DNA of 33,722 nucleotides, taken from assembly GCF_000710465.2 (NCBI RefSeq), contig NZ_JAIZ01000067.1, positions 1 through 33,722 on the forward strand. Reading direction: 5' to 3'. This stretch comes from Kitasatospora sp. MBT63. Lineage in GTDB: Bacteria > Actinomycetota > Actinomycetes > Streptomycetales > Streptomycetaceae. Position 1 is the first letter of the stretch. Each line of letters opens with the position of its first letter. This document shows positions 1,974 through 26,143 of this stretch, one piece after another. Made by a program: the position numbers and the translations under genes. Below the pieces are notes generated by a model, which saw nothing but the letters and a program-made list of their open reading frames with translations, was not told where the DNA came from and searched no databases.

Positions 1974-2876
1974 GTGACCGAGCCCACCGAGCCCACCCCT
2001 CCCCGCCGCAGCGGTCTGCGTGGCTTCGGCCACGACGGCCCCTCCCCCTGGACCGACCTCGACCGGCCGCCGCTGGACGCCACCGTGCTGCGCCGGGACC
2101 TGGTCCTGCCGGGCGCGCTGTGGACCGCCCTGGACGTCGTCGCCGACACCGGGTCGACCAACACCGACCTGGCCGCCCGGGCCAAGGAGGGTGCACCCGA
2201 GGGGGCCGTCCTGCTCGCCGAGGAGCAGACCGCCGGCCGCGGCCGCCTGGACCGCCGGTGGAGCGCCCCGGCCCGCTCCGGCCTCTTCCTGTCGCTGCTG
2301 CTGCGCCCCGCCGGCGTCCCCGTCGAGCGCTACGGCTGGCTGCCGATCCTGACCGGGGTGGCCGCCGCCTCGGTGCTGGAGCGGGTCGCCGAGGTCGAGA
2401 CCGGCCTGAAGTGGCCCAACGACCTGCTGGTGACCGTGGACGGCGCCGAGCGCAAGGTCGGCGGCATCCTCACCGAGCTCGCCGACGGCGCCGTGGTGGT
2501 CGGCCTCGGGATCAACGTCTCGCTGCGCGCCGACGAACTGCCGGTGCCCGCCGCGACCTCGCTGGCGCTGGCCGGCGCCGCCGTCACCGACCGGCAGACC
2601 CTGCTGCGCGCCCTGCTGCGCGAGTTCGCCGACCTGTACGGGGAGTGGACCCGGGCGGCCGGTGACCCGCACGCCAGCGGCCTGCTGCCCGCCTACACCG
2701 CCCGCTGCACCAGCCTGGGCCGCCCGGTCCGGGTCCAGCTGCCGGGCGGGCGCGAACTGCACGGCGAGGCGGTCGCGGTGGACGCCGACGGCCGCCTGGT
2801 GGTCCGCACCGCCGGCGGCGAACGCCACCCGGTGGCGGCCGGCGACGTGGTGCACGTCCGCCCGGAACCGTCCTGA
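1974..2876 (+). CDS. birA: Biotin--[acetyl-CoA-carboxylase] ligase
   Basis: A 300-aa class I biotin protein ligase that makes biotinyl-5'-AMP and transfers biotin to the lysine of biotin carboxyl carrier domains. The catalytic domain shows '[11 protein letters not shown]', the biotin/ATP loop '[14 protein letters not shown]' and the 'KWPNDLL' motif with the conserved lysine. It is followed by a C-terminal SH3-like domain beginning near '[16 protein letters not shown]'. There is no N-terminal winged helix, so it is monofunctional and not a repressor of the E. coli BirA type. The GTG start at 1974 is chosen because upstream codons are unrelated in character and a -10-like TACGCT is correctly placed for a leaderless transcript. 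It lies divergent from pccB, whose holoenzyme needs a biotinylated alpha subunit. Confidence 0.93.
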
Positions 2877-2892
2877 CCGGCGCTCCCGCCGT

Positions 2893-2923
2893 CCGGCGCG
2901 GGCCCGGTCCGGGCCCGCGCCGG
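2893..2923 (+). terminator. Terminator hairpin of birA
   Basis: A perfect inverted repeat with 15-bp all-G/C arms (2893-2907 and 2909-2923) around T2908, starting 17 nt after the birA stop. No U-tract follows, as is usual in high-GC actinobacteria. It separates birA from the adenylate cyclase. Confidence 0.75.
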
Positions 2924-2989
2924 GGCACCCCCGCACAGCTCAGGAGACATGTCCTGCATTTCCGTGCGAACATTCCACCTGGCAGCGGT

Positions 2990-3003
2990 GTGAGGCGCGC
3001 CAC
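2990..3003. promoter_or_regulatory. Candidate Crp operator upstream of adenylate cyclase
   Basis: GTGAGGCGCGCCAC fits the GTG-N6-G-N-CAC pattern I recall for Streptomyces coelicolor Crp. It lies 40 bp before the adenylate cyclase start. In GC-rich DNA this short pattern arises often by chance, so the location is the main argument. It could mediate autoregulation of cAMP synthesis. Confidence 0.35.
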
Positions 3004-3042
3004 TACCCGCGCGGGGGTCGTGCGCCACGGGACAGGCAGGAC

Positions 3043-4152
3043 ATGAGGCAAGTGCGGCGACCGCACGGGGACGGATCGGTGGCAGACGAGAGCGGCGGCG
3101 ACGGGCGGGACGACGACGACCAGACGGTCGCACTCGACCTGGAGCGGCTGATCCTGGACGCGCCCCGCCGGTACACCCCGTACCAGGCGGCCCGCGCCGC
3201 CGACGTGCCGATGGAGCTGGCCACCCGCTTCTGGCGGGCGATGGGCTTCCCCGACATCGGGCAGTCCCGGGCGCTCACCGACAACGACGTGATCGCGCTG
3301 CGCCGGCTGGCCGGCCTGGTCGAGTCCGGGCTGCTGAGCGAGCCGATGGCGATCCAGGTGGCCCGCTCCACCGGCCAGACCACGGCCCGGCTGGCCGGCT
3401 GGCAGATGGACACCTTCCTGGAGAACCTCACCCAGGCCGTCGAACCCGGGATGACCCGCGCCGACGTCGCCTACCCGCTGGTCGAACTGCTGCTCCCGGA
3501 GCTGGAGCAGTTCCTGGTGTACGTCTGGCGCCGGCAGCTGGCCGCCGTCACCGGCCGGGTGGTGCAGGCCGCCGAGGACACCGAGATCACCAGCGGCCGG
3601 CTGGCCGTGGGCTTCGCCGACCTGGTCGGCTTCACCCGGCTGTCGCGCCGGCTGGAGGAGGAGGAGCTCGGCGAGCTGGTCGAGACCTTCGAGAACACCT
3701 GCTCGGACCTGATCGCCGGTCAGGGCGGACGCGTCATCAAGACCCTCGGAGACGAGATCCTGTACGTCTCCGAGGACCCGGCCACCGCCGCCGAGATCGC
3801 GCTCGGCCTGGTCGAGACGCTGGCCAAGGAGGACACCATGCCCGCGCTGCGGGTCGGGATGGCCTTCGGCACCGTCACCTCCCGGATGGGCGACGTCTTC
3901 GGCACCACCGTCAACCTGGCCAGCCGGCTCACCTCGATCGCCCCCCGCGACGCGGTGCTGGTCGACGGCGAGCTGGCGGCCGCGCTGGAACTGACCGGTG
4001 CGGCGTCCGCCCCGCCGTCCTCCGACGACGGCCCCGCGCAGGCGCCGGCCGGTGAGCACCGCTTCCACCTGCAGCCGATGTGGCGGCGCCCGGTCCGCGG
4101 GCTCGGCCTGGTCGAGCCGTGGGTGCTGTCCCGGCCCGGCCGGCTCGGCTGA
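3043..4152 (+). CDS. cya: Class III adenylate cyclase
   Basis: A 369-aa cytoplasmic class III cyclase that makes cAMP from ATP. The C-terminal cyclase homology domain (about 183-330) carries metal-binding Asp193 in 'FADLVGFTRLS' and Asp237 in 'KTLGDEILYV'. It also has Lys233 for adenine recognition, and Asn291 and Arg295 in 'VFGTTVNLASRL', so it looks active and ATP-specific. The N-terminal part (about 40-160, from 'YTPYQAARAADVP') resembles the regulatory domain of actinobacterial cyclases such as mycobacterial Rv2212. No transmembrane segment is present. Start is ambiguous: ATG 3043 is used, and GTG 3079 is an alternative that would give 357 aa. It stands alone after the birA terminator. 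Three Crp-like sites in this window, one just upstream, suggest where its product may act. Confidence 0.93.
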   Translation: MRQVRRPHGDGSVADESGGDGRDDDDQTVALDLERLILDAPRRYTPYQAARAADVPMELATRFWRAMGFPDIGQSRALTDNDVIALRRLAGLVESGLLSEPMAIQVARSTGQTTARLAGWQMDTFLENLTQAVEPGMTRADVAYPLVELLLPELEQFLVYVWRRQLAAVTGRVVQAAEDTEITSGRLAVGFADLVGFTRLSRRLEEEELGELVETFENTCSDLIAGQGGRVIKTLGDEILYVSEDPATAAEIALGLVETLAKEDTMPALRVGMAFGTVTSRMGDVFGTTVNLASRLTSIAPRDAVLVDGELAAALELTGAASAPPSSDDGPAQAPAGEHRFHLQPMWRRPVRGLGLVEPWVLSRPGRLG

Positions 4153-8608: not shown

Positions 8609-8622
8609 GTGACGCGGGTCAC
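8609..8622. promoter_or_regulatory. Candidate Crp operator between fdhD and hutH
   Basis: GTGACGCGGGTCAC has perfect 5-bp arms (GTGAC/GTCAC), extended to 6 bp by the flanking bases 8608 and 8623. It fits the GTG-N6-G-N-CAC Crp pattern recalled for S. coelicolor. Its centre is about 74 bp before the hutH start, a position compatible with activation of hutH (or of divergent fdhD). Confidence 0.4.
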
Positions 8623-8653
8623 CCCGGTCGGCGAACCGGCTGCGCGTCAGCGG

Positions 8654-8682
8654 TTGTCATATCCTCATTCACCTGATGTCAT
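8654..8682 (+). promoter_or_regulatory. Putative hutH promoter (leaderless)
   Basis: TTGTCA (8654-8659) and TGTCAT (8677-8682) are separated by 17 bp. The -10 starts 13 nt before the hutH ATG, so transcription would begin at the start codon. No SD is present. Both boxes are imperfect, and the spacing is the main support. Confidence 0.45.
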
Positions 8683-8702
8683 TGTGCATATGGATATGCA
8701 CA
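8683..8702. promoter_or_regulatory. Perfect palindrome spanning the hutH start codon
   Basis: TGTGCATATGGATATGCACA has 9-bp perfectly complementary arms around a 2-bp centre, and the ATG at 8690-8692 lies inside it. If the transcript is leaderless, the element covers about -7 to +13, a classical repressor position. The coding sequence MDMHS is partly dictated by the palindrome. Confidence 0.7.
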
Positions 8703-10270
8703 GTGCTGTGGCCGTCGATGCCCCCGTGATCCAGGTCGGCAAGGCCGACGTCAGCGCCGAGGACGTGCTCGCCGTCGCGCGCGGCAACGCCCGGGTCGAG
8801 ATCGGCCCGGACGCGCAGGCCGAGATGGCCGCCGCCCGCGCCACGATCGAGGCCCTCGCCGCCGAACCGCGCCCGGTCTACGGCGTCTCGACCGGTTTCG
8901 GCGCGCTCGCCGTCCGCCACATCAGCCCCGAGCTGCGCGCCCAGCTGCAGCGCTCGCTGGTCCGCTCGCACGCCGCCGGCATGGGCCCGGCCGTCGAGCG
9001 CGAGGTGGTCCGCGCGCTGATGTTCCTGCGGATGAAGACCCTCGCCTCCGGCCGTACCGGGGTGCGCCCGCTGGTCGCGGAGACGATGGCCGCCATCCTG
9101 AACGCCGGCATCACCCCCGTGGTCCGCGAGTTCGGCTCGCTGGGCTGCTCCGGCGACCTCGCGCCGCTCTCGCACTGCGCGCTGGTGCTGATGGGCGAGG
9201 GCGTCGCGTACGGCCCCGACGGCGTCGAGCGCCCGGCCGGCGAGCTGCTCGCCGAGGCCGGCATCGAGCCGGTCGAGCTGCTGGAGAAGGAGGGCCTGGC
9301 CCTCATCAACGGCACCGACGGCATGCTCGGCATGCTGGTGATGGCGATCGCCGACCTCTCCCGGCTGTTCACCACCGCCGACATCACCGCCGCGATGAGC
9401 CTGGAGGCGCTGCTCGGCACCGACAAGGTGCTCGCCCCCGAGCTGCACTCCTCCATCCGCCCGCACCCGGGCCAGGCGCTCAGCGCCGCCAACATGCTCG
9501 CCGTGCTCAGCGGCTCCGGCCTGACCGGCCACCACCAGGACGACGCCCCGCGGGTCCAGGACGCCTACTCGATCCGCTGCGCCCCGCAGGTGGCCGGCGC
9601 CGGCCGGGACACCCTCGCGCACGCCGCGCTGGTCGCCTCCCGCGAGCTGGCGGCCTCGGTCGACAACCCGGTGGTGCTGCCCGACGGCCGGGTCGAGTCC
9701 AACGGCAACTTCCACGGCGCCCCGGTCGCGTACGTGCTGGACTTCCTCGCCATCGCCACCGCCGACCTGGCCTCGATCTCCGAGCGCCGCACCGACCGGC
9801 TGCTCGACAAGGCCCGCTCGCACGGCCTGCCCGCGTTCCTCGCCGACGACCCGGGCGTGGACTCCGGTCTGATGATCGCCCAGTACACCCAGGCCGCCCT
9901 GGTCAGCGAGAACAAGCGGCTCGCCGTCCCGGCCTCGGTGGACTCGATCCCGTCCTCCGCCATGCAGGAGGACCACGTCTCGATGGGCTGGTCGGCCGCG
10001 CGCAAGCTGCGCCTTGCGGTGGAGAACCTCGCCCGGGTGCTCGCCGTCGAGCTGCTCGCCTCGGCCCGCGCCCTGGAGATCCGCGCGGACGGCGGCAGCG
10101 GCCCGATCGCGCCCGCCACCGCCGCGGCCATCGCCGCGGCCCGCGAGGCCGGCGTGCAGGGTCCCGGCCGGGACCGCTTCCTGTCGCCGGACCTGGAGGC
10201 CGCGCACGCCCTGGTCGCCTCCGGCGGCCTGGTCGAGGCGGTCGAGCGGGTCACCGGTCCGCTGGCCTGA
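8690..10270 (+). CDS. hutH: Histidine ammonia-lyase
   Basis: A 526-aa enzyme that converts L-histidine to trans-urocanate and ammonia, the first step of histidine use. The MIO electrophile forms from residues 153-155 in 'GSLGCSGDLAPLSH'; the triad is Cys-Ser-Gly rather than the common Ala-Ser-Gly, which is also the Streptomyces form. Catalytic Tyr64 is in 'PVYGVSTGFG'. 'DNPVVLPDGRVESNGNFHG' and 'QEDHVSMGW' are further family blocks. The start at 8690 gives the known MDMH opening. The frame is open further upstream, but that part would run through the promoter and is rejected. No SD is present and translation is probably leaderless. The rest of the hut pathway lies 2.3 kb downstream behind three other genes. 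Confidence 0.97.
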   Translation: MDMHSAVAVDAPVIQVGKADVSAEDVLAVARGNARVEIGPDAQAEMAAARATIEALAAEPRPVYGVSTGFGALAVRHISPELRAQLQRSLVRSHAAGMGPAVEREVVRALMFLRMKTLASGRTGVRPLVAETMAAILNAGITPVVREFGSLGCSGDLAPLSHCALVLMGEGVAYGPDGVERPAGELLAEAGIEPVELLEKEGLALINGTDGMLGMLVMAIADLSRLFTTADITAAMSLEALLGTDKVLAPELHSSIRPHPGQALSAANMLAVLSGSGLTGHHQDDAPRVQDAYSIRCAPQVAGAGRDTLAHAALVASRELAASVDNPVVLPDGRVESNGNFHGAPVAYVLDFLAIATADLASISERRTDRLLDKARSHGLPAFLADDPGVDSGLMIAQYTQAALVSENKRLAVPASVDSIPSSAMQEDHVSMGWSAARKLRLAVENLARVLAVELLASARALEIRADGGSGPIAPATAAAIAAAREAGVQGPGRDRFLSPDLEAAHALVASGGLVEAVERVTGPLA

Positions 10271-10303
10271 CCTGCCGCCGGTGCCCGGGGCGGGCGGCCG
10301 TCA
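10268..10303. terminator. Bidirectional hairpin overlapping two convergent stop codons
   Basis: TGAC (10268-10271) and GCCGCC (10274-10279) pair with GGCGGC (10293-10298) and GTCA (10300-10303). The hutH stop codon is in the left arm and the stop of the minus-strand gene is in the right arm. It would serve both genes. Confidence 0.5.
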
Positions 10304-10705
10304 GGCCCACTCGCTCCGGGTGCCGCGGGACAGCTCGCGCTCCCGGCGGCGGTCCCCGAGGGCGGCGGAGAGGTTGACCCCGACGATCCCGGCCCAGCAG
10401 ACGATCAGACCGGTGACCCCGGCGTTCTCGGTGGCGATGGCGGTCAGCGGGATGCCCAGCACCAGCGAGGCGCCGCCCAGCGTGAACCGGCCGCCGCGCC
10501 CGCGGTCCCGGCCCCGGGCCGGGGCCCGGGCGTCGAGCTGCTCGGCGGCCCGCTGCTCGACCCGGGCGTCGAGGCGGGCGTCGAGCCGGGCGAGGAAGGA
10601 GTCGACGATCTCCGACTCGTACTCCTTGCCCAGTTCCTTGCGGGTCTGCACGGCGGCGTCGAGGTCGCGGCGCAGGTCGTCCTGGCGAGAGTCCATGAGG
10701 GCCAT
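10301..10705 (-). CDS. Small membrane protein of unknown function
   Basis: A 134-aa protein. The N-terminal half (about 1-60) is charged and predicted helical, with repeated Asp-Ala-Arg-Leu units ('FLARLDARLDARVEQRAAEQ') suggestive of a coiled coil. A basic spacer 'GRDRGRGGR' is followed by two hydrophobic segments (about 73-90 and 93-112) that would form a membrane hairpin, and a charged tail. I recognise no catalytic motif. ATG 10705 is used; ATG 10696 is an alternative, and neither has a clear SD. It is convergent with hutH and divergent from the RpiR regulator. Sequence style and codon use fit a real gene, but function is unknown. Confidence 0.7.
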   Translation of the reverse strand: MALMDSRQDDLRRDLDAAVQTRKELGKEYESEIVDSFLARLDARLDARVEQRAAEQLDARAPARGRDRGRGGRFTLGGASLVLGIPLTAIATENAGVTGLIVCWAGIVGVNLSAALGDRRRERELSRGTRSEWA

Positions 10706-10903
10706 GGTGACGGCCCGGACGGGCGGTCAGCCACCGCGGTACCGGGAATTCGGGGATCTTCAGGGAGAAATCAGGGTCACCCCCGAGAATCGGCCCGTCC
10801 CGGATCCCGAAACACCATTGCCCACCTGGCGGGACTGCGCCACAGTCGTCCCAGCCGCCGCAGCCAGCGGCGTCAGCCGAACCCGAGCTCGGAGGTACCG
10901 CAG

Positions 10904-11773
10904 ATGACCGCCCCGGAGGAGAACGGCGCCGTGGGCCCGTCCGCCCGCCTGCTGCAGCTCTTCGAGGGCCACCGGCTGACGCCGACGCAGCGCCGGATCG
11001 CCCACTCGCTGGTCCGGCACGCCACCGAGGCGCCGTTCCTGTCCAGCGTCGAGGTCGCCGAGCTGGCCGGAGTCAGCCAGCCCTCCGTCACCCGGTTCGC
11101 GGTCGCCCTCGGCTACGACGGCTACCCGGCGCTGCGCAAGCAGCTGCGCGAACTCGGCGGCGGCGAGCCGGCCGCCCCCGAGACCCCCGCCGACGCGGTG
11201 CGCAACGAACACCAGCAGGCCGTCCTGGCCGAGATCGAGCACCTGCGGCACCTGGCCGCACTGCTCGCCGACCCCGAGCCGATCGTCCGGGCCGCCCGGC
11301 TGCTCGCCGCCTCCCGGCCGCTGCCGGTGCTCGGCCTGCGGGCGGCCTCCGCCCAGGCCCGCGGCTTCGCGTACTTCGCCGCCAAGGTCCACCCCGACGT
11401 CCGGCTGCTGGACGAGGGCGGCTCGATGCTCGCCGACCGGATCGAACAGGCCGCCTTCGCCGGGGCCTCGGCGCTGCTCTGCTTCGCGCTGCCGCGCTAC
11501 CCGCGGGAACTGATGGACGCCCTGGCGGTGGCCCGGGCCTGCGGGCTGACCGTGCTGACCGTCGCCGACAGCGCCTTCGCCCCGGTCGCCAAGCTCTCCG
11601 ACCTGATGCTCCCGGCCGCGGTCGGCACCGGCCTGGTCTTCGACACCGCCTGTGCGCCGATGATGCTCGGCCGGGTGCTGCTGCAGACCATGTGCGACGA
11701 GATGCCCGGCGCGGAGGCCCGGCTGGAGGCGATCGAGCAGTCCGCCGCGGCCCGCGGCCTGTTCTTGGAGTAG
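10904..11773 (+). CDS. MurR/RpiR-family transcriptional regulator
   Basis: A 289-aa regulator with the RpiR architecture. An N-terminal helix-turn-helix (about 15-90) contains '[20 protein letters not shown]' and '[20 protein letters not shown]'; the S-x-P-S-V-T/x-R-F block is the family's recognition helix. A SIS domain (about 125-260) contains '[18 protein letters not shown]' and '[19 protein letters not shown]'. SIS domains in this family usually bind phosphosugars or related ligands. Strong SD (GGAGGT) 10 nt before the ATG. It sits between hutH and hutU, so it is a reasonable candidate regulator for the hut genes and their palindromes, but this is inference. Other Gram-positive hut systems use unrelated regulators. 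Confidence 0.9.
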
Positions 11774-11836
11774 CCGGGGCCTGGAGTGGCCGGGCCCCGA
11801 GCGGCCGGGGGCAGCCCCGAGGGCACAGCTTGGCCT

Positions 11837-11857
11837 CGGCCGGTTGCCCACCGGCCG
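11837..11857 (+). terminator. Terminator hairpin after the RpiR gene
   Basis: CGGCCGGT (11837-11844) and ACCGGCCG (11850-11857) form a perfect 8-bp stem with a 5-nt loop, 63 nt past the stop codon. It separates the regulator from the downstream CxxC protein. Confidence 0.6.
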
Positions 11858-11913
11858 TCAGCGGGCAGACCCTCCACAGGCCCTGGCGCCAGGGCCGGAC
11901 GGGGGAGTCAGCC

Positions 11914-12261
11914 ATGGGCCCGATCCACCAGATGAGACTGACCGGCCGACTCGCCTCGGGGGCCGACGAATGGTCCTGCCCGACCTGCGGCCGGCGGATC
12001 TCGCTGCGGCAGCCGCCCGAACCCGACCTGGTCGTCCTGGAGCCGGGCGACGAGAGCGCCGTCCACGTCGGGGTGATCGATCCGGACGCGGCGGCCGGAG
12101 CGGCGGAGAAGTACGGCATCGGCCCGATCCGCGAGATCCCGCGCGCCCCACGCCCGGCCGACCCGGCGGCGCCCCCGGCCCGCCCCGACCCGGTGGGTGC
12201 CGAGGACCGCCGCTGGCTTGCCGAGATCGGCATCGACTGGGACGGCGACGCCGCGGCCTGA
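11914..12261 (+). CDS. Small CxxC (zinc-ribbon-like) protein of unknown function
   Basis: A 115-aa hypothetical protein starting [20 protein letters not shown] with a GGGGAG ribosome binding site. The only recognisable motif is one CPTCGRR knuckle at about residues 22-28, half a zinc ribbon, so metal binding would need dimerisation or other ligands. A Pro/Ala-rich linker follows '[11 protein letters not shown]', and the C-terminus is acidic ('[13 protein letters not shown]'). It lies between the RpiR regulator and hutU. I do not recognise a function; a small accessory or regulatory role is possible. Confidence 0.7.
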
Positions 12262-12524
12262 CCCCGGGACGCGCCCTCAGCCGCGTCCCGCGTACCGCGG
12301 AGGCCCGTCCGCCCCCAGCACGGGCAGCGGCACGGGCAGCGGCACCGCCATGCCGTAGCGCCCGTCGAGCACGCCCCTGTGCGCTGCTCGATGCCTGCGT
12401 CCGCCTCCCGGAGTCTGCCGGGCCGGGCGGATTGGTGGGCCGGGGCTCTGGCCGATGGCCGATTGATTGGATATATTCAGAGAACCAAATCATGAATGAA
12501 TCCATCCGCAGGGAGGCCGGCAGC
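12262..12524. other. Intergenic region before hutU, with a possible minus-strand gene remnant
   Basis: This 263-bp stretch holds the hutU promoter and leader at its right end. Left of that it contains two perfect tandem copies of CACGGGCAGCGG (12319-12330 and 12331-12342). On the minus strand an open frame ends at the stop 12277-12279 and reads backwards through '...[19 protein letters not shown]', with plausible codon use but no start codon I can find upstream. It could be the decayed 3' end of a lost gene or chance. Confidence 0.3.
12468..12504 (+). promoter_or_regulatory. hutU promoter and overlapping dyad
   Basis: TATATT at 12472-12477 is a good -10 hexamer in a locally AT-rich stretch, predicting a start near 12484 and a leader of about 40 nt. 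A large dyad overlaps it: TGGATATATTCA (12468-12479) and TGAATGAATCCA (12493-12504) are complementary at 10 of 12 positions with a 13-nt spacer. It runs from the -10 into the leader and could be a repressor operator or, if transcription started further upstream, an RNA stem. The in-frame ATG at 12492 inside the right arm has no SD. Confidence 0.5.
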
Positions 12525-14198
12525 ATGGTGCAGCAGCAGACGGGCAGTGGTCCGCGTGAGGTCCGCGCGGCGCGCGGGACGAACCTGACCACGCAGGGGT
12601 GGCAGCAGGAGGCCGCCCTGCGGATGCTCATGAACAACCTCGACCCCGAGGTCGCGGAGCACCCGTCCAAGCTGGTGGTCTACGGAGGCACCGGCAAGGC
12701 GGCCCGCGACTGGCGCTCGTACGACGCCATGGTCCGCACCCTGCAGACCCTCAAGCAGGACGAGACCATGCTGGTCCAGTCCGGCCGTCCGGTCGGTGTG
12801 ATGCAGACCCACGAGTGGGCGCCGCGTGTCCTGATCGCCAACTCCAACCTGGTCGGCGACTGGGCCAACTGGGAGGAGTTCCGCCGGCTGGAGAGCCTCG
12901 GGCTCACCATGTACGGCCAGATGACCGCCGGTTCGTGGATCTACATCGGCACCCAGGGCATCCTCCAGGGCACCTACGAGACCTTCGGCGCCGTCGCGGC
13001 CAAGAAGTTCGACAACACCCTCGAGGGCACCATCACCCTGACCGCCGGTCTCGGCGGCATGGGCGGCGCCCAGCCGCTCGCCGTCACCATGAACGGCGGC
13101 GTGGCGATCTGCATCGACTGCGACCCGTCCCGGATCTCCCGCCGGATCGAGCACCGCTACCTGGACGTCGAGGCCAAGAACCTGGACCACGCGCTGCAGC
13201 TCGCCGTGGAGGCCCGTGACAAGAAGCAGCCGCTCTCGATCGGCCTGCTGGGCAACGCCGCCGAGCTGTTCCCGCAGCTGCTCGCGATGGACGCGCCGAT
13301 CGACATCGTCACCGACCAGACCAGCGCCCACGACCCGCTGAGCTACCTGCCGATCGGCGTCGCCTTCGAGGACATGGCGGACTACGCGGCCGCCAAGCCG
13401 GCCGAGTTCACCCAGCGCTCGCGCGAGTCGATGGCCAAGCACGTCGAGGCGATGGTCGGCTTCCAGGACCGCGGCGCCGAGGTCTTCGACTACGGCAACT
13501 CGATCCGCGGCGAGGCCCAGCTCGCGGGCTACACCCGGGCGTTCGAGTTCCCCGGCTTCGTCCCGGCGTACATCCGGCCGCTGTTCTGCGAGGGCAAGGG
13601 CCCGTTCCGCTGGGCCGCGCTGTCCGGCGACGCGCAGGACATCTACAAGACCGACAAGGCCGTGCTCGACCTCTTCCCGGAGAACGAGTCGCTGCACCGC
13701 TGGATCAAGATGGCCCAGGAGAAGGTGCACTTCCAGGGCCTGCCGGCGCGGATCTGCTGGCTCGGCTACGGCGAGCGCGACAAGGCGGGCGAGCGCTTCA
13801 ACGACATGGTCGCCTCCGGTGAGCTGTCCGCCCCGATCGTGATCGGCCGCGACCACCTGGACTGCGGCTCGGTCGCCTCCCCGTACCGCGAGACCGAGGC
13901 CATGCTGGACGGCTCGGACGCGATCGCCGACTGGCCGCTGCTGAACGCCATGGTCAACGTCGCCTCCGGCGCGTCCTGGGTCTCCATCCACCACGGCGGC
14001 GGCGTCGGCATCGGCCGCTCGATCCACGCCGGCCAGGTCACCGTCGCCGACGGCACCGCGCTGGCGGGCGAGAAGATCCGCCGGGTGCTCACCAACGACC
14101 CGGGCATGGGCGTCATCCGGCACGTCGACGCCGGCTACGACCTGGCGAGCGAGGTCGCGGCCGAGCGCGGGGTCCGCGTCCCCATGAACGAGCTGTGA
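12525..14198 (+). CDS. hutU: Urocanate hydratase
   Basis: A 557-aa enzyme that hydrates urocanate to 4-imidazolone-5-propionate using tightly bound NAD+. The NAD-binding glycine motif '[10 protein letters not shown]' is at 175-184, '[11 protein letters not shown]' is near residue 53, and the active-site cysteine lies in '[15 protein letters not shown]'. Sequence blocks are the very conserved family pattern and the length is typical (550-560 aa). The start at 12525 has a GGGAGG site 8 nt upstream; ATG 12492 in the same frame would add 11 residues but lacks an SD and lies in the operator-like dyad. Its last codons overlap the start of the next gene by 4 nt, so it heads a translationally coupled operon. 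Confidence 0.97.
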
Positions 14199-15406
14199 CC
14201 GACACCTTCGGCCGGATGTGGGCGGAGCTGCTCCCCGTGGGCCGCTCCGCCTCCTCCGGCGGCTACCGCCGCTTCGCCTGGAACTCCGCCGACGCCGAGT
14301 GCCGGTCCTGGTTCGAGGAGCAGGCCCGCGCCCGCGGCCTGGCGTACGAGCTGGACCGCAACGGCAACCAGTGGGCCTGGCTCGGCGACCCGCAGGCCGG
14401 CGGTGCGGTCGTCACCGGCTCGCACCTGGACTCCGTCCCGGACGGCGGCGCCTACGACGGCCCGCTCGGGGTGGTCTCCGCCTTCGCCGCGCTCGACGAA
14501 CTGCGCGAGCGCGGCGCCGAGTTCGACCGTCCGCTGGCGATCGTCAACTTCGGCGACGAGGAGGGCGCCCGGTTCGGCGTGGCCTGCATCGGCTCCCGCC
14601 TCACCGCCGGCGTGCTCTCCAAGGAGCAGGCGTACGCGCTGCGCGACGCCGACGGCGTCCGGCTGCCCGACGCCATGGAGCGGGCCGGCTACGACCCGGC
14701 CGCGATCGGTGCCGACCAGGAGCGGCTGGCCAGGGTCGGCGCCTACGTCGAACTCCACGTCGAGCAGGGCCGCTACCTGACCGAGGAGCACCCGGTCGGG
14801 GTGGCCAGCGCGATCTGGCCGCACGGCCGCTGGCGGTTCGACTTCCACGGCGAGGCCAACCACGCCGGCACCACCCGGATCGAGGACCGCCGCGACCCGA
14901 TGCTGACCTTCGCCGAGACGGTCCTGGCCGCCCGCACCCGCGCCCAGCTGGCCGGTGCGCTGGCCACCTTCGGCAAGGTCGCGGTCGAGCCGAACGGCAC
15001 CAACGCCATCGCCTCGCTGATCCGCGGCTGGCTGGACTCCCGGGCCGCGGACGAGCCGACCCTGACCGCCCTGGTCGAGGAGATCCGGCAGGCCGCGTAC
15101 GAGAGCGGCGAGCGGACCGGCATCAAGGTCGAGCTGACCCGCGAGTCCTACACCCCGGTGGTGGACTTCGACGGTCCGCTGCGCGACCGGCTGGCCGGGC
15201 GCCTCGGCGGGGTGCCGGTGCTGCCGACCGGCGCGGGACACGACGCCGGAATCCTCGCATCGGCGATCCCGACCGCCATGCTGTTCGTGCGGAACCCGAG
15301 CGGGGTCTCGCACTCGCCGGCCGAGCACGCCGAGGAGCGCGACTGCCTCGCCGGGGTGGCCGCCCTCGCCGACGTACTGGAGGACCTCGCATGTCTGCAG
15401 CGGTGA
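14195..15406 (+). CDS. M20-family amidohydrolase, annotated-type 'allantoate amidohydrolase'; probable N-formylglutamate deformylase of the hut pathway
   Basis: A 403-aa metallohydrolase of the M20 / Zn-dependent amidase (hydantoinase-carbamoylase) type. Ligand positions are visible: His77 in '[12 protein letters not shown]', Asp88 in 'YDGPLGV', Glu122/123 in '[10 protein letters not shown]', His188 in 'VELHVEQGR' and a late His in '[10 protein letters not shown]'. Family members cleave N-carbamoyl or allantoate amide bonds. Here it overlaps hutU by 4 nt (GTGA) and hutF by 16 nt, and no HutG-type gene is present. It most likely hydrolyses N-formyl-L-glutamate to glutamate and formate; that substrate is inference from position. 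No allantoin genes are nearby. The GTG start is fixed by the overlap. Confidence 0.88.
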
Positions 15407-16746
15407 CGTACTGGGCCGAGTACGCCTGGCTGCCGCACGCCAACGGACCGGTGGTCGAGCAGCAGGTGCTGATCGCGGTCGGCCCGGGCGGCCGGATCGC
15501 CAAGGTCACCCCGGACAGCGGGCCCTGCCCGCCCGGGGCGGTCCGGCTCGGCGGACTGGTGCTGCCCGGCCAGGCCAACGCCCACTCGCACGCCTTCCAC
15601 CGCGCGCTGCGCGGCACCGTGCAGGTCGGCTCCGGCACCTTCTGGACCTGGCGGGACACCATGTACCGGTTCGCCGGTGCGCTCGACCCGGACAGCTACC
15701 TTGAGCTGGCCACCGCCGTGTACGCGGAGATGGCGCTCGCCGGGATCACCGCGGTGGGCGAGTTCCACTACCTCCACCACGGCCCCGGCGGCGGCCGCTA
15801 CGACGACCCCAACGCGATGGGCGAGGCGCTGATCGAGGCCGCCCTGCGGGCCGGCATCCGGATCACCCTGCTGGACACCTGCTACGTCTCGGCCGGGTTC
15901 GGCGCCGAGCCGACCAAGCCGCAGCTGCGGTTCAGCGACGGTGACGCGGACGCCTGGGCGGAGCGCGCCTCGGAGCTCAAGGGCAGCGAGCACGCCCGGA
16001 TCGGCGCTGCCGTCCACTCGGTGCGCGCCGTCCCGGCCGAGCAGCTGAGCACCGTCGCCCACTGGGCGGCGATGCGCAAGGCCCCGCTGCACGTCCACCT
16101 CTCCGAACAGACCGCCGAGAACGACGCCTGCCTGACCGCGCACGGCGTCACCCCGACCCGGCTGCTCGCCGACCACGGGGTGCTCGGCCCGCGGACCTCG
16201 GCCGTGCACGCGACCCACCTCAGCGACGAGGACATCCGGCTGCTCGCCGACTCCTCCACCACCATCTGCATGTGCCCCACCACCGAACGGGACCTGGCCG
16301 ACGGCATCGGCCCGGCCCGCCGGCTGGCGAGCGCGGGCTGTCCGATCAGCCTCGGCAGCGACAGCCACGCGGTCATCGACCCGTTCGAGGAGGCCCGCGC
16401 GCTGGAGCTGGACGAGCGGCTGCGCACCCGCACCCGCGGCCACTGGACCGCCAACGCGCTGCTGCGCGCCGGTGCCGAGGACGGCCACGCCTCGCTCGGC
16501 TGGCCGGAGGCCGGCCGGATCGAGGCCGGCTCGCTCGCCGACCTCACCGCCGTCGCGCTGGACTCCGTCCGGACCGCCGGCCCGGCGCCCGCGCTGGGCG
16601 CCGAGACCGCGGTCTTCGCGGCCTCGGCCGCCGACGTCCGGCACGTCGTGGTCGGCGGCCGGCACATCGTCAAGGACGGCGTGCACCAGCTGGTCACCGA
16701 CGTCCCGGCCGCCCTGCGCGCGTCGATCGCCGCGCTGCAGTCCTAG
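15391..16746 (+). CDS. hutF: Formimidoylglutamate deiminase (N-formimino-L-glutamate iminohydrolase)
   Basis: A 451-aa amidohydrolase-superfamily enzyme that converts N-formimino-L-glutamate to N-formyl-L-glutamate and ammonia. The metal site is complete: His65 and His67 in 'ANAHSHAFHRAL', a His in 'LHVHLSEQTAEN' (234-240), 'AVHATHLSDED' (271-281), and Asp324 in 'SLGSDSHAVIDP'. 'CMCPTTERDLADGIGP' is the characteristic FIGLU-deiminase block. Length (about 450 aa) matches the family. The ATG has a GGAGG ribosome binding site lying inside the end of the preceding gene, showing tight coupling. Its presence commits this hut pathway to the five-step route through N-formylglutamate rather than direct formiminoglutamase. 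Confidence 0.93.
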   Translation: MSAAVTYWAEYAWLPHANGPVVEQQVLIAVGPGGRIAKVTPDSGPCPPGAVRLGGLVLPGQANAHSHAFHRALRGTVQVGSGTFWTWRDTMYRFAGALDPDSYLELATAVYAEMALAGITAVGEFHYLHHGPGGGRYDDPNAMGEALIEAALRAGIRITLLDTCYVSAGFGAEPTKPQLRFSDGDADAWAERASELKGSEHARIGAAVHSVRAVPAEQLSTVAHWAAMRKAPLHVHLSEQTAENDACLTAHGVTPTRLLADHGVLGPRTSAVHATHLSDEDIRLLADSSTTICMCPTTERDLADGIGPARRLASAGCPISLGSDSHAVIDPFEEARALELDERLRTRTRGHWTANALLRAGAEDGHASLGWPEAGRIEAGSLADLTAVALDSVRTAGPAPALGAETAVFAASAADVRHVVVGGRHIVKDGVHQLVTDVPAALRASIAALQS

Positions 16747-16761
16747 GCCTCGCCGGATCCG

Positions 16762-16779
16762 CGGGTCCTGTCGGACCCG
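16762..16779 (+). terminator. Hairpin after hutF
   Basis: CGGGTCC (16762-16768) and GGACCCG (16773-16779) form a 7-bp stem with a 4-nt loop, 15 nt past the hutF stop. It may attenuate or end the hutU-hutF transcript before hutI's own promoter. Confidence 0.4.
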
Positions 16780-16793
16780 GCCGCGGCCGGCCA

Positions 16794-16799
16794 TAGAAT
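16794..16799 (+). promoter_or_regulatory. -10 box of a separate hutI promoter
   Basis: TAGAAT matches the common -10 at 5 of 6 bases and the actinobacterial TAGRRT form exactly. The predicted start (about 16806) coincides with the first base of the large hairpin at 16807. A -35 element is not convincing. Confidence 0.5.
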
Positions 16800-16806
16800 C
16801 CGGGGT

Positions 16807-16841
16807 GCGGGCCCCACCAGGGCTGATCTGGTGGGGCCCGC
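16807..16841 (+). other. Perfect 14-bp hairpin at the predicted 5' end of the hutI mRNA
   Basis: Arms 16807-16820 and 16828-16841 are perfectly complementary with a 7-nt loop. With transcription starting near 16806, the message would begin with this stem. It leaves the SD (about 16855-16865) and the TTG start free, so a 5' stabilising stem is more likely than a translation block. It could also act as an intra-operon terminator. Confidence 0.55.
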
Positions 16842-16869
16842 GCCCCTACCCCTCGAAGGGAAGGGCCCC

Positions 16870-18036
16870 TTGAGCCTCCTCATCACCGACATCGGCACGC
16901 TGGTGACCAACGACCCCGCGCTCGGCAGCGGCCCGCTGGGTGTGGTCCCGGACGCGGCCGTGGTCGTGGAGGGCAGCCGGATCGCCTGGGTCGGCCCGGC
17001 CGCCGCCGCGCCCGCCGCGGACGAACGGTTCGACGCCAAGCACCGCGCGATGCTGCCCGGCTTCGTCGACTCGCACGCCCACCTGGTCTTCGCGGGCGAC
17101 CGGACCGCCGAGTTCAACGCCCGGATGTCCGGCCAGGCCTACACCGCCGGCGGCATCCGCACCACGGTCGCCGCCACCCGGGCCGCCACCGACGCCGAGC
17201 TGGACGCCAACCTGGTCCGCTTCCTGCGCGAGGCCCTGCACCAGGGCACCACCACCGTCGAGTGCAAGTCCGGCTACGGGCTGACCGTCGCGGACGAGGC
17301 GCGGGCGCTGCGGATCGCCGCCTCGCACACCCCCGAGACCACCTACCTGGGCGCGCACGTGGTCGCCCCCGAGTTCGCCGACGACCCGGCCGGCTACGTC
17401 GACCTGGTCACCGGCGAGATGCTGGACGCCTGCGCCCCGCACGCCCGCTGGGTGGACGTCTTCTGCGAGCGCGGCGCCTTCGACGGCGACCAGGCCCGCG
17501 CGATCCTCACCGCGGGCGCCGAGCGCGGCCTGATCCCGCGGGTGCACGCCAACCAGCTCTCGTACGGCCCCGGCGTGCAGCTGGCGGTCGAGCTGGGCGC
17601 CGCCTCCGCCGACCACTGCACCCACCTGACCGACGAGGACGTGGCCGCGCTGGCCGGCTCCGCGACGGTCGCCACCCTGCTGCCGGGCGCCGAGTTCTCC
17701 ACCCGCGCCGAGTACCCGAACGCCCGCCGGCTGCTGGACGCGGGCGCCACCGTCGCGCTGTCCACCGACTGCAACCCGGGCTCCAGCTTCACCAGCTCGA
17801 TGGCGTTCTGCATCGCGGTCGCCGTCCGCGAGATGGGCATGACCCCGGACGAGGCGGTGCACGCCGCCACCGCCGGCGGCGCCCGCGCGCTGCGCCGCAC
17901 CGACGTCGGCGTCATCACCCCGGGCGCCCGGGCCGACCTGCTGCTGCTGGAGGCACCCTCGCACGTCCACCTGGCCTACCGGCCGGGCGTGCCGCTCACC
18001 GCCGCGGTCTGGCGGGCGGGCGCGCGCGAGTTCTGA
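16870..18036 (+). CDS. hutI: Imidazolonepropionase
   Basis: A 388-aa amidohydrolase-superfamily enzyme that opens 4-imidazolone-5-propionate to N-formimino-L-glutamate. The metal-binding HxH is at His69/His71 in '[15 protein letters not shown]'. Other family blocks are '[12 protein letters not shown]', 'VHANQLSYG', '[10 protein letters not shown]', and the late metal Asp in '[10 protein letters not shown]'. TTG 16870 is taken as the start because a purine-rich GAAGGGAAGGG site lies directly before it. The ATG at 16831 in the same frame falls inside the hairpin arm and is unlikely. It closes the hut cluster, separated from hutF by 123 bp with its own promoter, and is followed by a very strong terminator. 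Confidence 0.96.
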
Positions 18037-18142: not shown

Positions 18143-19648
<1,506 letters not shown>

Positions 19649-19922
19649 GTGTAGGGGTTCCTTGCCTGACTTCGTCCGCCAAGGGGGGTGGAGGCGGACG
19701 GGGACCAAACCACTGTACGTGGCGGTTTTCCATGACATGGCCGGACAAACATCGCAAATCAGGTAACACGCAGGCAAAGTCCTGGCGACCTCGTGGCGCC
19801 CAATCGATGGCGCGAGCGGAAATTGTCCTTTGAAGTGAAGGTAGCACGTCCGATTCTTTGGCAAAGGCCCCCATTCGACCCCTCGGACGGCCGGATGGCG
19901 GCACCCGCCCGATGATCACGCT

Positions 19923-19940
19923 CTGTGAACTAGTTCACAG
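19923..19940. promoter_or_regulatory. Perfect Crp/GlxR-type palindrome
   Basis: CTGTGAACTAGTTCACAG is a perfect 18-bp palindrome. Its core TGTGA-N6-TCACA is the enterobacterial CRP consensus, and the central TA matches the corynebacterial GlxR form TGTGAnnTAnnTCACA. It is centred about 112 bp before the response regulator start and 283 bp before the transporter start. The site lacks the G preferred next to NCAC in the S. coelicolor motif as I recall it. Confidence 0.65.
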
Positions 19941-20005: not shown

Positions 20006-20037
20006 CCCTGATCAGGGGGCCCGCGGCGGTCTAACAT
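20006..20037 (+). promoter_or_regulatory. Response regulator promoter with palindrome over the -35
   Basis: TAACAT (20032-20037) lies 12 nt before the ATG, predicting a leaderless mRNA; there is no SD. The perfect 12-bp palindrome CCCTGATCAGGG (20006-20017) covers the expected -35 position (20009-20014), placing a bound protein over the promoter, possibly the response regulator itself. Confidence 0.5.
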
Positions 20038-20043
20038 CAGCCC

Positions 20044-20718
20044 ATGACCTGTGTGCTGCTGGCCGAGGACGACCCGGCAATCTCCGAACCGCTGGCCCGC
20101 GCGCTGCGCCGGGAAGGCTATGAGGTGCTGGTCCGCGAGGACGGACCGGCCGCGCTGGGGGCGGGGCTCACCGAGGAGGTCGACCTGATCGTCCTCGACC
20201 TGGGTCTGCCCGAGATGGACGGCCTGGAGGTCTGCCGGCGGCTGCGCGCCGACGGCAAGAGCTTCCCGGTGCTGGTGCTCACCGCCCGCGCCGACGAGGT
20301 GGACACCGTGGTCGGCCTCGACGCGGGCGCCGACGACTACGTCACCAAGCCCTTCCGGCTGGCAGAGCTGCTCGCCCGGGTCCGGGCGCTGCTGCGCCGC
20401 GGCAACGTCGACCAGCTCACCACCGGCGCGCACGGCGTCAAGATCGACATCGAGTCGCACCGCGCCTGGCTCGGCGAGGAGGAGCTCACCCTCTCCGCCA
20501 AGGAGTTCGAGCTGCTGCGGGTCCTGGTCCGGGACGCCGGCCGGGTGGTCACCCGCGAGGAGATCATGCGGCAGGTCTGGGACACCACCTGGTGGACCTC
20601 GACCAAGACCCTCGACATGCACATCTCCTGGCTGCGCAAGAAGCTCGGCGACGACGCGGCCAACCCGCGCTACATCGCGACCGTCCGCGGCGTGGGCTTC
20701 CGCTTCGAGAAGAACTGA
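20044..20718 (+). CDS. OmpR-family two-component response regulator
   Basis: A 224-aa response regulator. The receiver domain (1-115) has the acidic pair Asp9/Asp10 in 'LLAEDDPAI', phospho-acceptor Asp52 in 'IVLDLGLPEMDG', Thr80 in 'VLTAR' and Lys102 in 'VTKPF'. The C-terminal winged helix (about 130-222) shows 'LSAKEFELLRVLVRDAGRVVTREEI' and ends 'YIATVRGVGFRFEKN', the OmpR/PhoB pattern. It is complete and should be phosphorylation-competent. The kinase gene starts 43 nt downstream. Start is ATG 20044, likely leaderless. The specific system and target genes are not recognised. Confidence 0.93.
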   Translation: MTCVLLAEDDPAISEPLARALRREGYEVLVREDGPAALGAGLTEEVDLIVLDLGLPEMDGLEVCRRLRADGKSFPVLVLTARADEVDTVVGLDAGADDYVTKPFRLAELLARVRALLRRGNVDQLTTGAHGVKIDIESHRAWLGEEELTLSAKEFELLRVLVRDAGRVVTREEIMRQVWDTTWWTSTKTLDMHISWLRKKLGDDAANPRYIATVRGVGFRFEKN

Positions 20719-20761: not shown

Positions 20762-22006
20762 GTGAAGCGCAGGATGATCAATTCACTGCTGGGCGTGGTC
20801 CTGGTGGTGGTCGCGGTGTTCTGCGTACCGCTGGCACTGATCGAGAAGCAGAGCATCGTCGGCGCCGCCAACGACCGGGTCGACGCGGCCGCCGTCCGGG
20901 TCCTCGGCCTGGTCGAGAGCCGGCTGGCGGCCGGCGAGCCGGTCACCGGCGAGAAGTTCGCCGCCCAGGTCACCGACGGCTCCTTCGTCACCGTCGACAT
21001 CCCCGGCCAGCCCCTCATCGCGGCCGGCCGCCCGGTCCAGGGCGCCGCCCTGACCGCCACCGAACAGGGCCTCAGCGGCGAGACCGTCACCGTGATGCAG
21101 TCCCGCGAGGACGTCGACCACGAGATCGGCAACATGCTGCTGCTGCTCGGCGTGGTCGCCCTGCTCGCCGTCCAGGCCGCCGTCGCACTCGCGGTCTGGC
21201 AGGCCAAACGGCTCGCCCGGCCGCTCACCGACCTCGCCGAGACCGCCGAACGACTCGGCTCCGGCGACCCGCGCCCCCGCGACCGCCGGTACGGCGTGCC
21301 CGAACTCGACCGGATCGCCGAGGTCCTGGACGCCAGCGCCGAGCGGATCGCCCGGATGCTCACCGCCGAACGCAGGCTCGCCGCCGACGCCTCCCACCAG
21401 CTGCGCACCCCGCTCACGGCGCTGTCCATGCGGCTGGAGGAGATCACCGCGCTCGCCGAGGAACCCCGGACCGTCCGCGAGGAGGCCGCCATCGGCCTCC
21501 AGCAGGTCGAGCGGCTGACCGACGTGGTGCAGCGGCTGCTCACCAACCAGCGCGACCGCAGCAGCCCGACGGCGGTCGGCTTCCCGCTGGACGAGGTGAT
21601 CAAGCAGCAGGTGGAGGAGTGGGGGCCGCCGCTGCGCGACAGCGGCCGGCGGCTGGTCATCGAGGGCCTGCACGGCGCCGAGGTGACCGGCACCCCCGGA
21701 ACGGTCGCCCAGGTGCTCGCCACCCTCATCGAGAACTCGCTGATGCACGGCGCCGGCACCATCACCCTGCGGGTGCGACGCTCCGGCAGCTCGATCGTCA
21801 CCGAGGTCCAGGACGAGGGCGCGGGCGTCCCGCCGGAGCTCGGCAACCGGGTCTTCGAACGCGCGGTCAGCGGCCGCAACTCCACCGGCATCGGCCTCGC
21901 CGTGGCCCGCGACCTCGCCGAGGCGGACGGCGGCCGACTGGAACTGCTGTCCCTGCGGCCACCGGTGTTCGCCCTGTTCGTAGGGCGGAGCCGGACGACC
22001 GACTAG
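20762..22006 (+). CDS. Sensor histidine kinase
   Basis: A 414-aa membrane sensor kinase, partner of the preceding response regulator. It has a transmembrane helix at about 8-28, an extracytoplasmic sensor region of about 95 residues, and a second helix at about 124-147. A HAMP linker follows from 'AKRLARPLTDLAETAERLGSG', then the dimerisation domain with phospho-accepting His212 in 'ADASHQLRTPLTAL'. The ATPase domain has Asn325 (N box), 'DEGAG' at 351-355 and 'GIGLA' at 376-380. GTG 20762 follows GAAGGA; ATG 20774 is possible. The last seven residues GRSRTTD and the TAG stop are encoded by the first unit of a 33-bp tandem repeat, so the C-terminus looks recently altered. The signal sensed is unknown. 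Confidence 0.92.
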   Translation: MKRRMINSLLGVVLVVVAVFCVPLALIEKQSIVGAANDRVDAAAVRVLGLVESRLAAGEPVTGEKFAAQVTDGSFVTVDIPGQPLIAAGRPVQGAALTATEQGLSGETVTVMQSREDVDHEIGNMLLLLGVVALLAVQAAVALAVWQAKRLARPLTDLAETAERLGSGDPRPRDRRYGVPELDRIAEVLDASAERIARMLTAERRLAADASHQLRTPLTALSMRLEEITALAEEPRTVREEAAIGLQQVERLTDVVQRLLTNQRDRSSPTAVGFPLDEVIKQQVEEWGPPLRDSGRRLVIEGLHGAEVTGTPGTVAQVLATLIENSLMHGAGTITLRVRRSGSSIVTEVQDEGAGVPPELGNRVFERAVSGRNSTGIGLAVARDLAEADGGRLELLSLRPPVFALFVGRSRTTD

Positions 22007-24943: not shown

Positions 24944-26143
24944 ATGACGCCTGAACTGCTCGACCGTGCCCGCGCCCTGCTCCGCGAGACCCCGGTGGTC
25001 GACGGCCACAACGACCTGCCCTGGGCGATGCGGGCCCAGGCCGGTTACGACCTGGACGTCCTCGACCTGGGCGCGGACCAGAGCGGTCGGCTGCACACCG
25101 ACCTGGCCCGGCTGCGCGCCGGCGGGGTCGGCGCGCAGTTCTGGTCGGTCTACGTCCGCTCGGACTGGGCGGGCGACCGCGCGGTCAGCGCCACCCTGGA
25201 ACAGATCGACTTCGTCCGCACCCTGGTGCAGCGCAACCCCGCCGAGCTGCGGCTCGCCCTGACGGCGGACGACATGGAGGCGGCCCGGGCCGAGGGCCGG
25301 ATCGCCTCGCTGATGGGCGCCGAGGGCGGCCACTCGATCGACTGCTCGCTCGGCGCCCTGCGGATGCTGCACGAACTGGGCGTGCGCTACCTGACGCTGA
25401 CCCACAACAACAACGTGCCGTGGGCGGACTCCGCCACCGACGAGCCGGTCGCCGGCGGGCTGACCGCGTTCGGCGAGGAGGTCGTCCGGGAGATGAACCG
25501 GATCGGCATGCTGGTCGACCTCTCGCACGTCTCCGCCGACACCATGCGCGCTGCCCTGCGGGTCTCCGCGGCGCCGGTGATCTTCTCGCACTCCTCCGCC
25601 CGCGCCGTCTGCGACCACCCGCGCAACGTCCCGGACGACGTGCTCGCCCAGCTGCCCGGCAACGGCGGCGTGGCGATGGCCACCTTCGTGCCCAAGTTCA
25701 TCCTGCCCGCCGCCATCGAGTGGACCGCCGACGCCGACGCCAACATGCGCGCCCACGGCCTGCACCCGCTGGAGACCACCCCGGAGGCGATGGCGGTGCA
25801 GGGCGCGTACGAGCGGGCCCACCCGCGGCCGTCGGCCACCGTGGCCACCGTCGCCGACCACCTGGACCACATGCGCGAGGTGGCCGGGATCGACCACATC
25901 GGCATCGGCGGCGACTTCGACGGCACCGCCTTCCTCCCCGAGGGGCTGCAGGACGTCGCGGGCTACCCCAACCTGATCGCCGAACTGCTCGGCCGCGGTT
26001 GGTCCGAGGCAGACCTCGGGAAGCTCACCTGGCACAACGCGGTGCGGGTGCTGCGGGACGCCGAGGACGTCGCCACCGACCTGCAGCTCACCTTCCGCGG
26101 CCCGTCCTGGGCCACCATCGAGCAGCTCGACGGCCGTGGTTGA
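24944..26143 (+). CDS. Membrane dipeptidase (peptidase family M19)
   Basis: A 399-aa zinc dipeptidase of the renal-dipeptidase family. Metal-site blocks are '[13 protein letters not shown]' (H-x-D), 'GAEGGHSID' with the bridging Glu, '[12 protein letters not shown]', '[17 protein letters not shown]' and '[17 protein letters not shown]'. There is no signal peptide or anchor, so despite the family name it is probably cytoplasmic, cleaving dipeptides (and possibly D-amino-acid or beta-lactam-like bonds). It stands directly after purE but has its own probable leaderless promoter. The MerR regulator gene follows 25 nt downstream. Confidence 0.94.

Follow-up and report, generated by a model that had tools for sequence, protein, structure and literature searches.

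Within the 33,722 nucleotides of Kitasatospora sp. MBT63 DNA analysed here (the window), the gap between divergently oriented genes for a peptide transporter and a two-component system contains a perfect 18-bp palindrome, which raises the question of which protein would bind this element and which of its two neighbours it would serve. Comparison across related genomes indicates that the palindrome is probably the operator of Crp, a cAMP-binding regulator of the Crp/GlxR type, for the POT-family peptide transporter on its minus-strand side. The features on which the argument depends are as follows.

18143..19648, minus strand: POT-family oligopeptide:H+ symporter (PF00854, TIGR00924), the proposed target
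19673..19700, minus strand: short perfect hairpin in the predicted leader of the transporter, directly preceding the ribosome-binding site
19712..19717, minus strand: TACAGT, conserved -10-like box of the predicted transporter promoter, its first base 214 bp from the palindrome centre
19827..19834, minus strand: TTCAAAGG, the window's version of an element resembling TTCGAAGG that is conserved among relatives, with about 97 bp between it and the palindrome centre
19923..19940, no strand: 18-bp palindrome with TGTGA-N6-TCACA, the proposed Crp operator (from sequence and conservation)
20032..20037, plus strand: TAACAT, -10-like box of draR a few bases before the ATG, with a predicted leaderless start
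20044..20718, plus strand: OmpR-type response regulator draR, a neighbour not supported as target
20762..22006, plus strand: sensor kinase draK with the DraK N-terminal domain (PF18092), a neighbour not supported as target

The palindrome and its surroundings

The preliminary description had reported a perfect palindrome, and indeed CTGTGAACTAGTTCACAG at 19923-19940 is its own reverse complement across 18 bp and provides the only exact occurrence of TGTGA-N6-TCACA in the whole window, as compared to a mean expectation of 0.01 from 100 dinucleotide shuffles (with a match in one of the 100); an independent-base estimate of the expected number of exact matches is 0.004 for the window and approximately one for the genome. 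When up to two mismatches were allowed, the window showed no enrichment (4 found versus 5.15 expected), and within the window the exact palindrome alone thus stands out. The further statements that the element is richer in A+T than its surroundings (56%, versus 37% in the divergent gap and 27% in the window) and that it lies in a 395-bp divergent region (from the transporter start at 19648 to the draR start at 20044) were borne out by measurement. The same is true for the statement that the window also codes for an adenylate cyclase; positions 2662-4152 encode such a domain (PF00211, adenylate/guanylate cyclase), which is compatible with a Crp operator, but no proof of one.

With regard to the flanking genes, the two-component pair was named draR/draK because a kinase with PF18092 lies beside an OmpR-type regulator; the -10-like box of draR reads TACCAT or TACGAT in most aligned relatives. 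The stretch of the window from the palindrome to the start codon folded no better than its shuffles (z 0.23), and an Rfam search of the window returned a single sub-threshold match of microRNA type, on both strands. The surroundings of the transporter (window 8609-18036 and 24944-26143) are rich in genes for amino acid and peptide use, including an aromatic amino acid lyase, a urocanate hydratase, an M20 peptidase-family protein, an amidohydrolase, and an M19 dipeptidase. In Streptomyces coelicolor, DraK/R is described as SCO3062/63, as acting at high nitrogen supply, and as having a sensor domain that changes with pH (PMC9739842); the transporter beside this pair should be SCO3064, the promoter of which is given elsewhere as one of the WblC-repressed and WblC-bound promoters (PMC7157823).

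Beyond the window, exact TGTGA-N6-TCACA occurred 677 times in 70 genomes of the genus, versus 27 times for a control consisting of the same pattern reversed without complementing; TGAGT-N6-ACTCA was rejected as a control pattern because it contains the MacR box and is common in its own right, at 0 to 14 copies per genome. The MBT63 genome has nine exact sites, including that in the window. Exact sites elsewhere in this genome (L187:3001-3016, L185:3001-3016, and L183:3001-3016) lie upstream of genes for NADH dehydrogenase chain 3 (at about 100 bp, and recurring with an identical spacer in other genomes of the genus), for the sporulation protein SsgA (at 117 bp), and for a protein with GGDEF, GAF, and PAS domains (at about 117 bp); another is located within a gene for orotidine-phosphate decarboxylase and precedes a small gene for an S13-like protein with an H2TH domain by about 250 bp. 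Of the eight exact sites outside the window, four overlap with mechanically called reading frames, so that not all of them need be operators. Separately, GTGAACACGTTCAC or its reverse complement recurs elsewhere in many genomes of the genus (L090; e.g., G000:C32:20388-20401).

Conservation and linkage to the transporter

Conservation was assessed in three sets of loci, which overlap, so that their counts are not additive. A DraK-based search yielded 60 loci, of which 55 (L005-L059) are from Streptomycetaceae or filed close to them, the five remote ones being left out; 48 of the 55 have the transporter, and a scan of the 450 bp upstream of it found the motif with at most one mismatch in 47 of these 48 loci, including 35 with an exact match, as compared to 0.35 in shuffles, with L043 as the one locus lacking such a site. 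Of 200 family genomes searched, 172 have the transporter, our own genome among them. From these, a set of 77 upstream regions from other genera was assembled with the best match per genome among those listed, leaving aside G171, which lies at a contig end; removal of L111, which was too short, left 76 loci. The motif with at most one mismatch was present in 71 of these 76 loci (0.50 expected from shuffles), never in its exact form and mostly as TGTGA-N6-TCTCA when read in the sense of the transporter. Within the genus itself, all 63 loci examined (62 further listed loci plus the window) carry the motif with at most one mismatch, and in 58 it is exact. Across relatives with the same target gene, the half-sites are kept while the 6-bp spacer varies. 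Conservation in relatives, which the preliminary description had named as a way to check its reading, was found upstream of the transporter in all three sets (47/48, 71/76, and 63/63), and the check thus did not refute the reading.

No site with at most one mismatch was found in five of the 76 loci from other genera or upstream of the remoter transporters of G079, G081, and G083, where G079 corresponds to L133 and is already among the five; at least G079 and G083 possess Crp despite lacking a site at this threshold. As a separate observation, G081 is the sole sampled family genome without an intact crp match, with a crp-like stretch that is split into several frames (L267 and L269) or reflects an assembly error, and its transporter gap has only a two-mismatch site at the usual distance (L264:3343-3358).

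The site tracks the transporter rather than draRK. It was absent from all seven loci that have draRK without the transporter, including L053, in which draR aligns only in two pieces. In ten further loci (L006, L012, L106-L110, L112, L116, and L130), a second copy of the POT transporter, whole or fragmentary, lies between the site-bearing transporter and draR; the gap on the draR side lacked the site in all ten, the best matches having three or four mismatches, and in the two tandem loci of the Kitasatospora type the site is located 1 to 1.7 kb from draR. Finally, six genomes have transporter and draRK at separate places; a site with at most one mismatch was present upstream of the transporter in five of them (L115 has two mismatches) and upstream of draR in none. 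Since the site is lost without the transporter and missing from the draR side, the sensor kinase as target, which the preliminary description had suggested, fails as a general rule; by contrast, the link to peptide uptake that it had also suggested is well supported by the comparison, as the site is kept upstream of the transporter.

A single Crp operator shared by both divergent genes would be in keeping with the one gap that transporter and draR have in common, and in 25 of 61 genus loci 46 bp separate the palindrome centre from the start codon of draR, which places it beside the predicted draR promoter. In the window, however, the centre is 112 bp from draR, and the distances over the 61 loci (eight unmeasured) spread between 33 and 156 bp, apart from a single one of 380 bp, so that draR shows no common spacing; moreover, the site disappears with the transporter and is not retained with draR. 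We thus consider a shared operator unlikely, and an operator for the transporter is the reading that we carry forward.

Candidate binding proteins

The MBT63 genome encodes a Crp protein of 224 residues (L095), in which the recognition-helix stretch GASRETVNKALADFA is the same, residue for residue, as in 3h3u, 3mzh, and 3d0s, the three best among the solved relatives listed, with titles that place them in the Crp/Fnr family and which we take to be M. tuberculosis proteins. Of the 61 family genomes sampled, 60 have Crp, at E values of up to 1e-60. The assignment of the palindrome as a Crp/GlxR-type site in the preliminary description is well supported by the kept half-sites, the variable spacer, the conserved position upstream of the transporter, and a widespread Crp with a matching recognition helix.

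Candidate binders were sought among the Crp/Fnr proteins above the family cut-offs. One of these, L100, the second full-length Crp/Fnr-family protein of the genome, has a Crp-type helix-turn-helix score at least equal to that of Crp and a helix, SREAVAR, with the R-E-R pattern of E. coli CRP. Relatives of L100 (E up to 1e-40) were nevertheless present in only 17 of the 61 family genomes, as compared to 60 of 61 for Crp, while the site is near-universal upstream of the transporter; for this patchy distribution L100 was rejected as a general binder, and binding by L100 or another Crp/Fnr-family protein in place of Crp appears improbable. It is less credible still that the palindrome is a site of DraR, with which this OmpR-type regulator would control its own operon and perhaps the transporter, since, for all that DraR is encoded right beside it, linkage to the transporter speaks against DraR as the binder, the site being absent from the draRK-only loci (7/7), from the draR-adjacent gaps of the tandem loci (10/10), and upstream of draR where draRK is elsewhere (6/6). 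Moreover, the gap has no match with up to two mismatches to a DraR motif, and the spacing between site and draR differs greatly among loci.

A MacR-type palindrome was considered as well and does not fit the site; the arms of the MacR box are TGAGTAC. Palindromes similar to TGAGTAC-NN-GTACTCA, which resemble this box, are frequent throughout the genus, and a literature search on the TGAGTAC motif, with most subscription journals outside its scope, found nothing.

Promoter geometry and comparison with known Crp systems

With Crp as the probable binder, a cAMP-loaded Crp dimer would bind both TGTGA half-sites and switch the transporter promoter, which would set transcription of the transporter. 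Crp would more likely act as an activator, with repression as the alternative, because the predicted promoters are without a good -35 box. In genomes of the Streptomyces type, Crp may act beside the promoter, with a -10-like box 38 bp from the palindrome centre, while in Kitasatospora it would act over a distance of about 214 bp, seemingly always from the same side of the helix. All promoter boxes and transcription starts referred to here are predictions from conservation.

Within the genus, the distance from the first base of the TANNNT box (TACAGT in the window, 19717-19712, minus strand) to the palindrome centre is 214 bp in 35 of 63 loci; it is 213 bp in 6, 215 bp in 4, 212 bp in 2, and 211 bp in 2 of the 63, and shorter distances of 203 and 192 bp were found in 3 and 11 loci, respectively. 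From the box to the transporter start codon, the distance ranges from 41 to 148 bp over 61 genus loci (one unmeasured). The distance from the palindrome centre to the TTCGAAGG-like element is 95-99 bp wherever the pattern was recognised, except in L225, where it is 86 bp; the pattern was not recognised in several loci, including the 192-bp group, in which related forms occur at 86-87 bp. The large changes in spacing resemble losses of roughly 11 bp from one half or the other. In other genera, distances of 215 bp (L105), 213 bp (L130), 192 bp (L107, L108, and L115, the site of the last having two mismatches), and 159 bp (five loci) were observed, and among the 73 loci whose site matches either form with at most one mismatch, 48 have a TANNNT box exactly 38 bp from the centre.

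In the window, the palindrome centre is about 226 bp from the predicted transporter start, which is far for ordinary Crp activation, as class I/II Crp-dependent promoters have the site no more than about 100 bp from the start. The chance of the observed phasing at a period of 10.5 was estimated as 0.014 to 0.0004 for two to four independent 11-bp changes, depending on the tree, and an earlier test gave 0.03 with four lineage values including 159 bp and 0.07 with three values; the four loci with 211-212 bp deviate by two or three bases, the distances of 42 bp (L119) and 38 bp (Streptomyces type) fall outside the series, and the phase statistics for the Kitasatospora spacing are suggestive only. 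In a further model, which we consider less likely than not, Kitasatospora and certain genera related to it would use Crp as a helix-phased enhancer from an operator about 226 bp upstream of the predicted start, where the spacing would be held almost to the base pair or cut by approximately whole turns (203 and 192 versus 214 bp) and the conserved elements in between would join one nucleoprotein complex or DNA loop, while in Streptomyces-type genomes the same operator would lie against the promoter, before a long leader.

These Streptomyces-type leaders (L134:205-492, L154:208-497, L158:2208-2497, and others) measure 188 to 371 bases from the predicted start to the transporter start codon and contain conserved blocks and hairpins, the first hairpin being followed by a T-rich run. 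A consensus fold over 29 of 34 leaders has 54 pairs, of which 19 have at least one two-sided kept change, a raw count without a shuffled baseline; no Rfam match was found in the eight relatives searched. The leader could be an attenuator or riboswitch-like.

The site most likely lets these bacteria tune peptide uptake through cAMP. If true, cAMP would be tied to peptide uptake in antibiotic producers, next to a two-component system with links to antibiotics and to nitrogen supply, and the related loci would provide a ready-made series of spacings with which to study how Crp acts from afar. A literature search on CRP with POT-family transporters found nothing in the sources covered, most subscription journals being outside them. 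The palindrome itself would be a further example of the already known Crp/GlxR operators; if proven, the long and seemingly helix-phased spacing of Kitasatospora would be a variant of these. According to a 2023 report, a test promoter was not shifted by purified Crp of S. tsukubaensis, matching earlier failures by others, and GlxR was substituted for it (PMC10033298); a near-perfect, family-wide operator should make a good probe for the missing Streptomyces Crp band shift.

Among known systems, S. coelicolor Crp, for which 393 ChIP-chip targets are given in PMC10033298, is a regulator of orthologous type, and its sites share the GTG half-site and the closing CAC with the palindrome; unlike the strong consensus GTG(N)6GNCAC quoted in that report, the window has a T where a G is required (position 10). 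The GlxR operators of Corynebacterium glutamicum follow GTG(N)8CAC (PMC10033298), which the palindrome meets (GTGAACTAGTTCAC), but they belong to another genus and another target, and the present element is a candidate site. There is also a likeness to mycobacteria, in that the M. smegmatis proteins Crp1 and Crp2 are reported to recognise TGTGA-N6-TCACA (PMC7739888) and in that solved actinobacterial Crp chains have a recognition-helix stretch identical to that of the MBT63 Crp. The cydA sites of M. smegmatis are placed between -58 and -101 from the start (PMC7739888), in contrast to a centre about 226 bp from the predicted start here, where the target, moreover, would be a peptide transporter.
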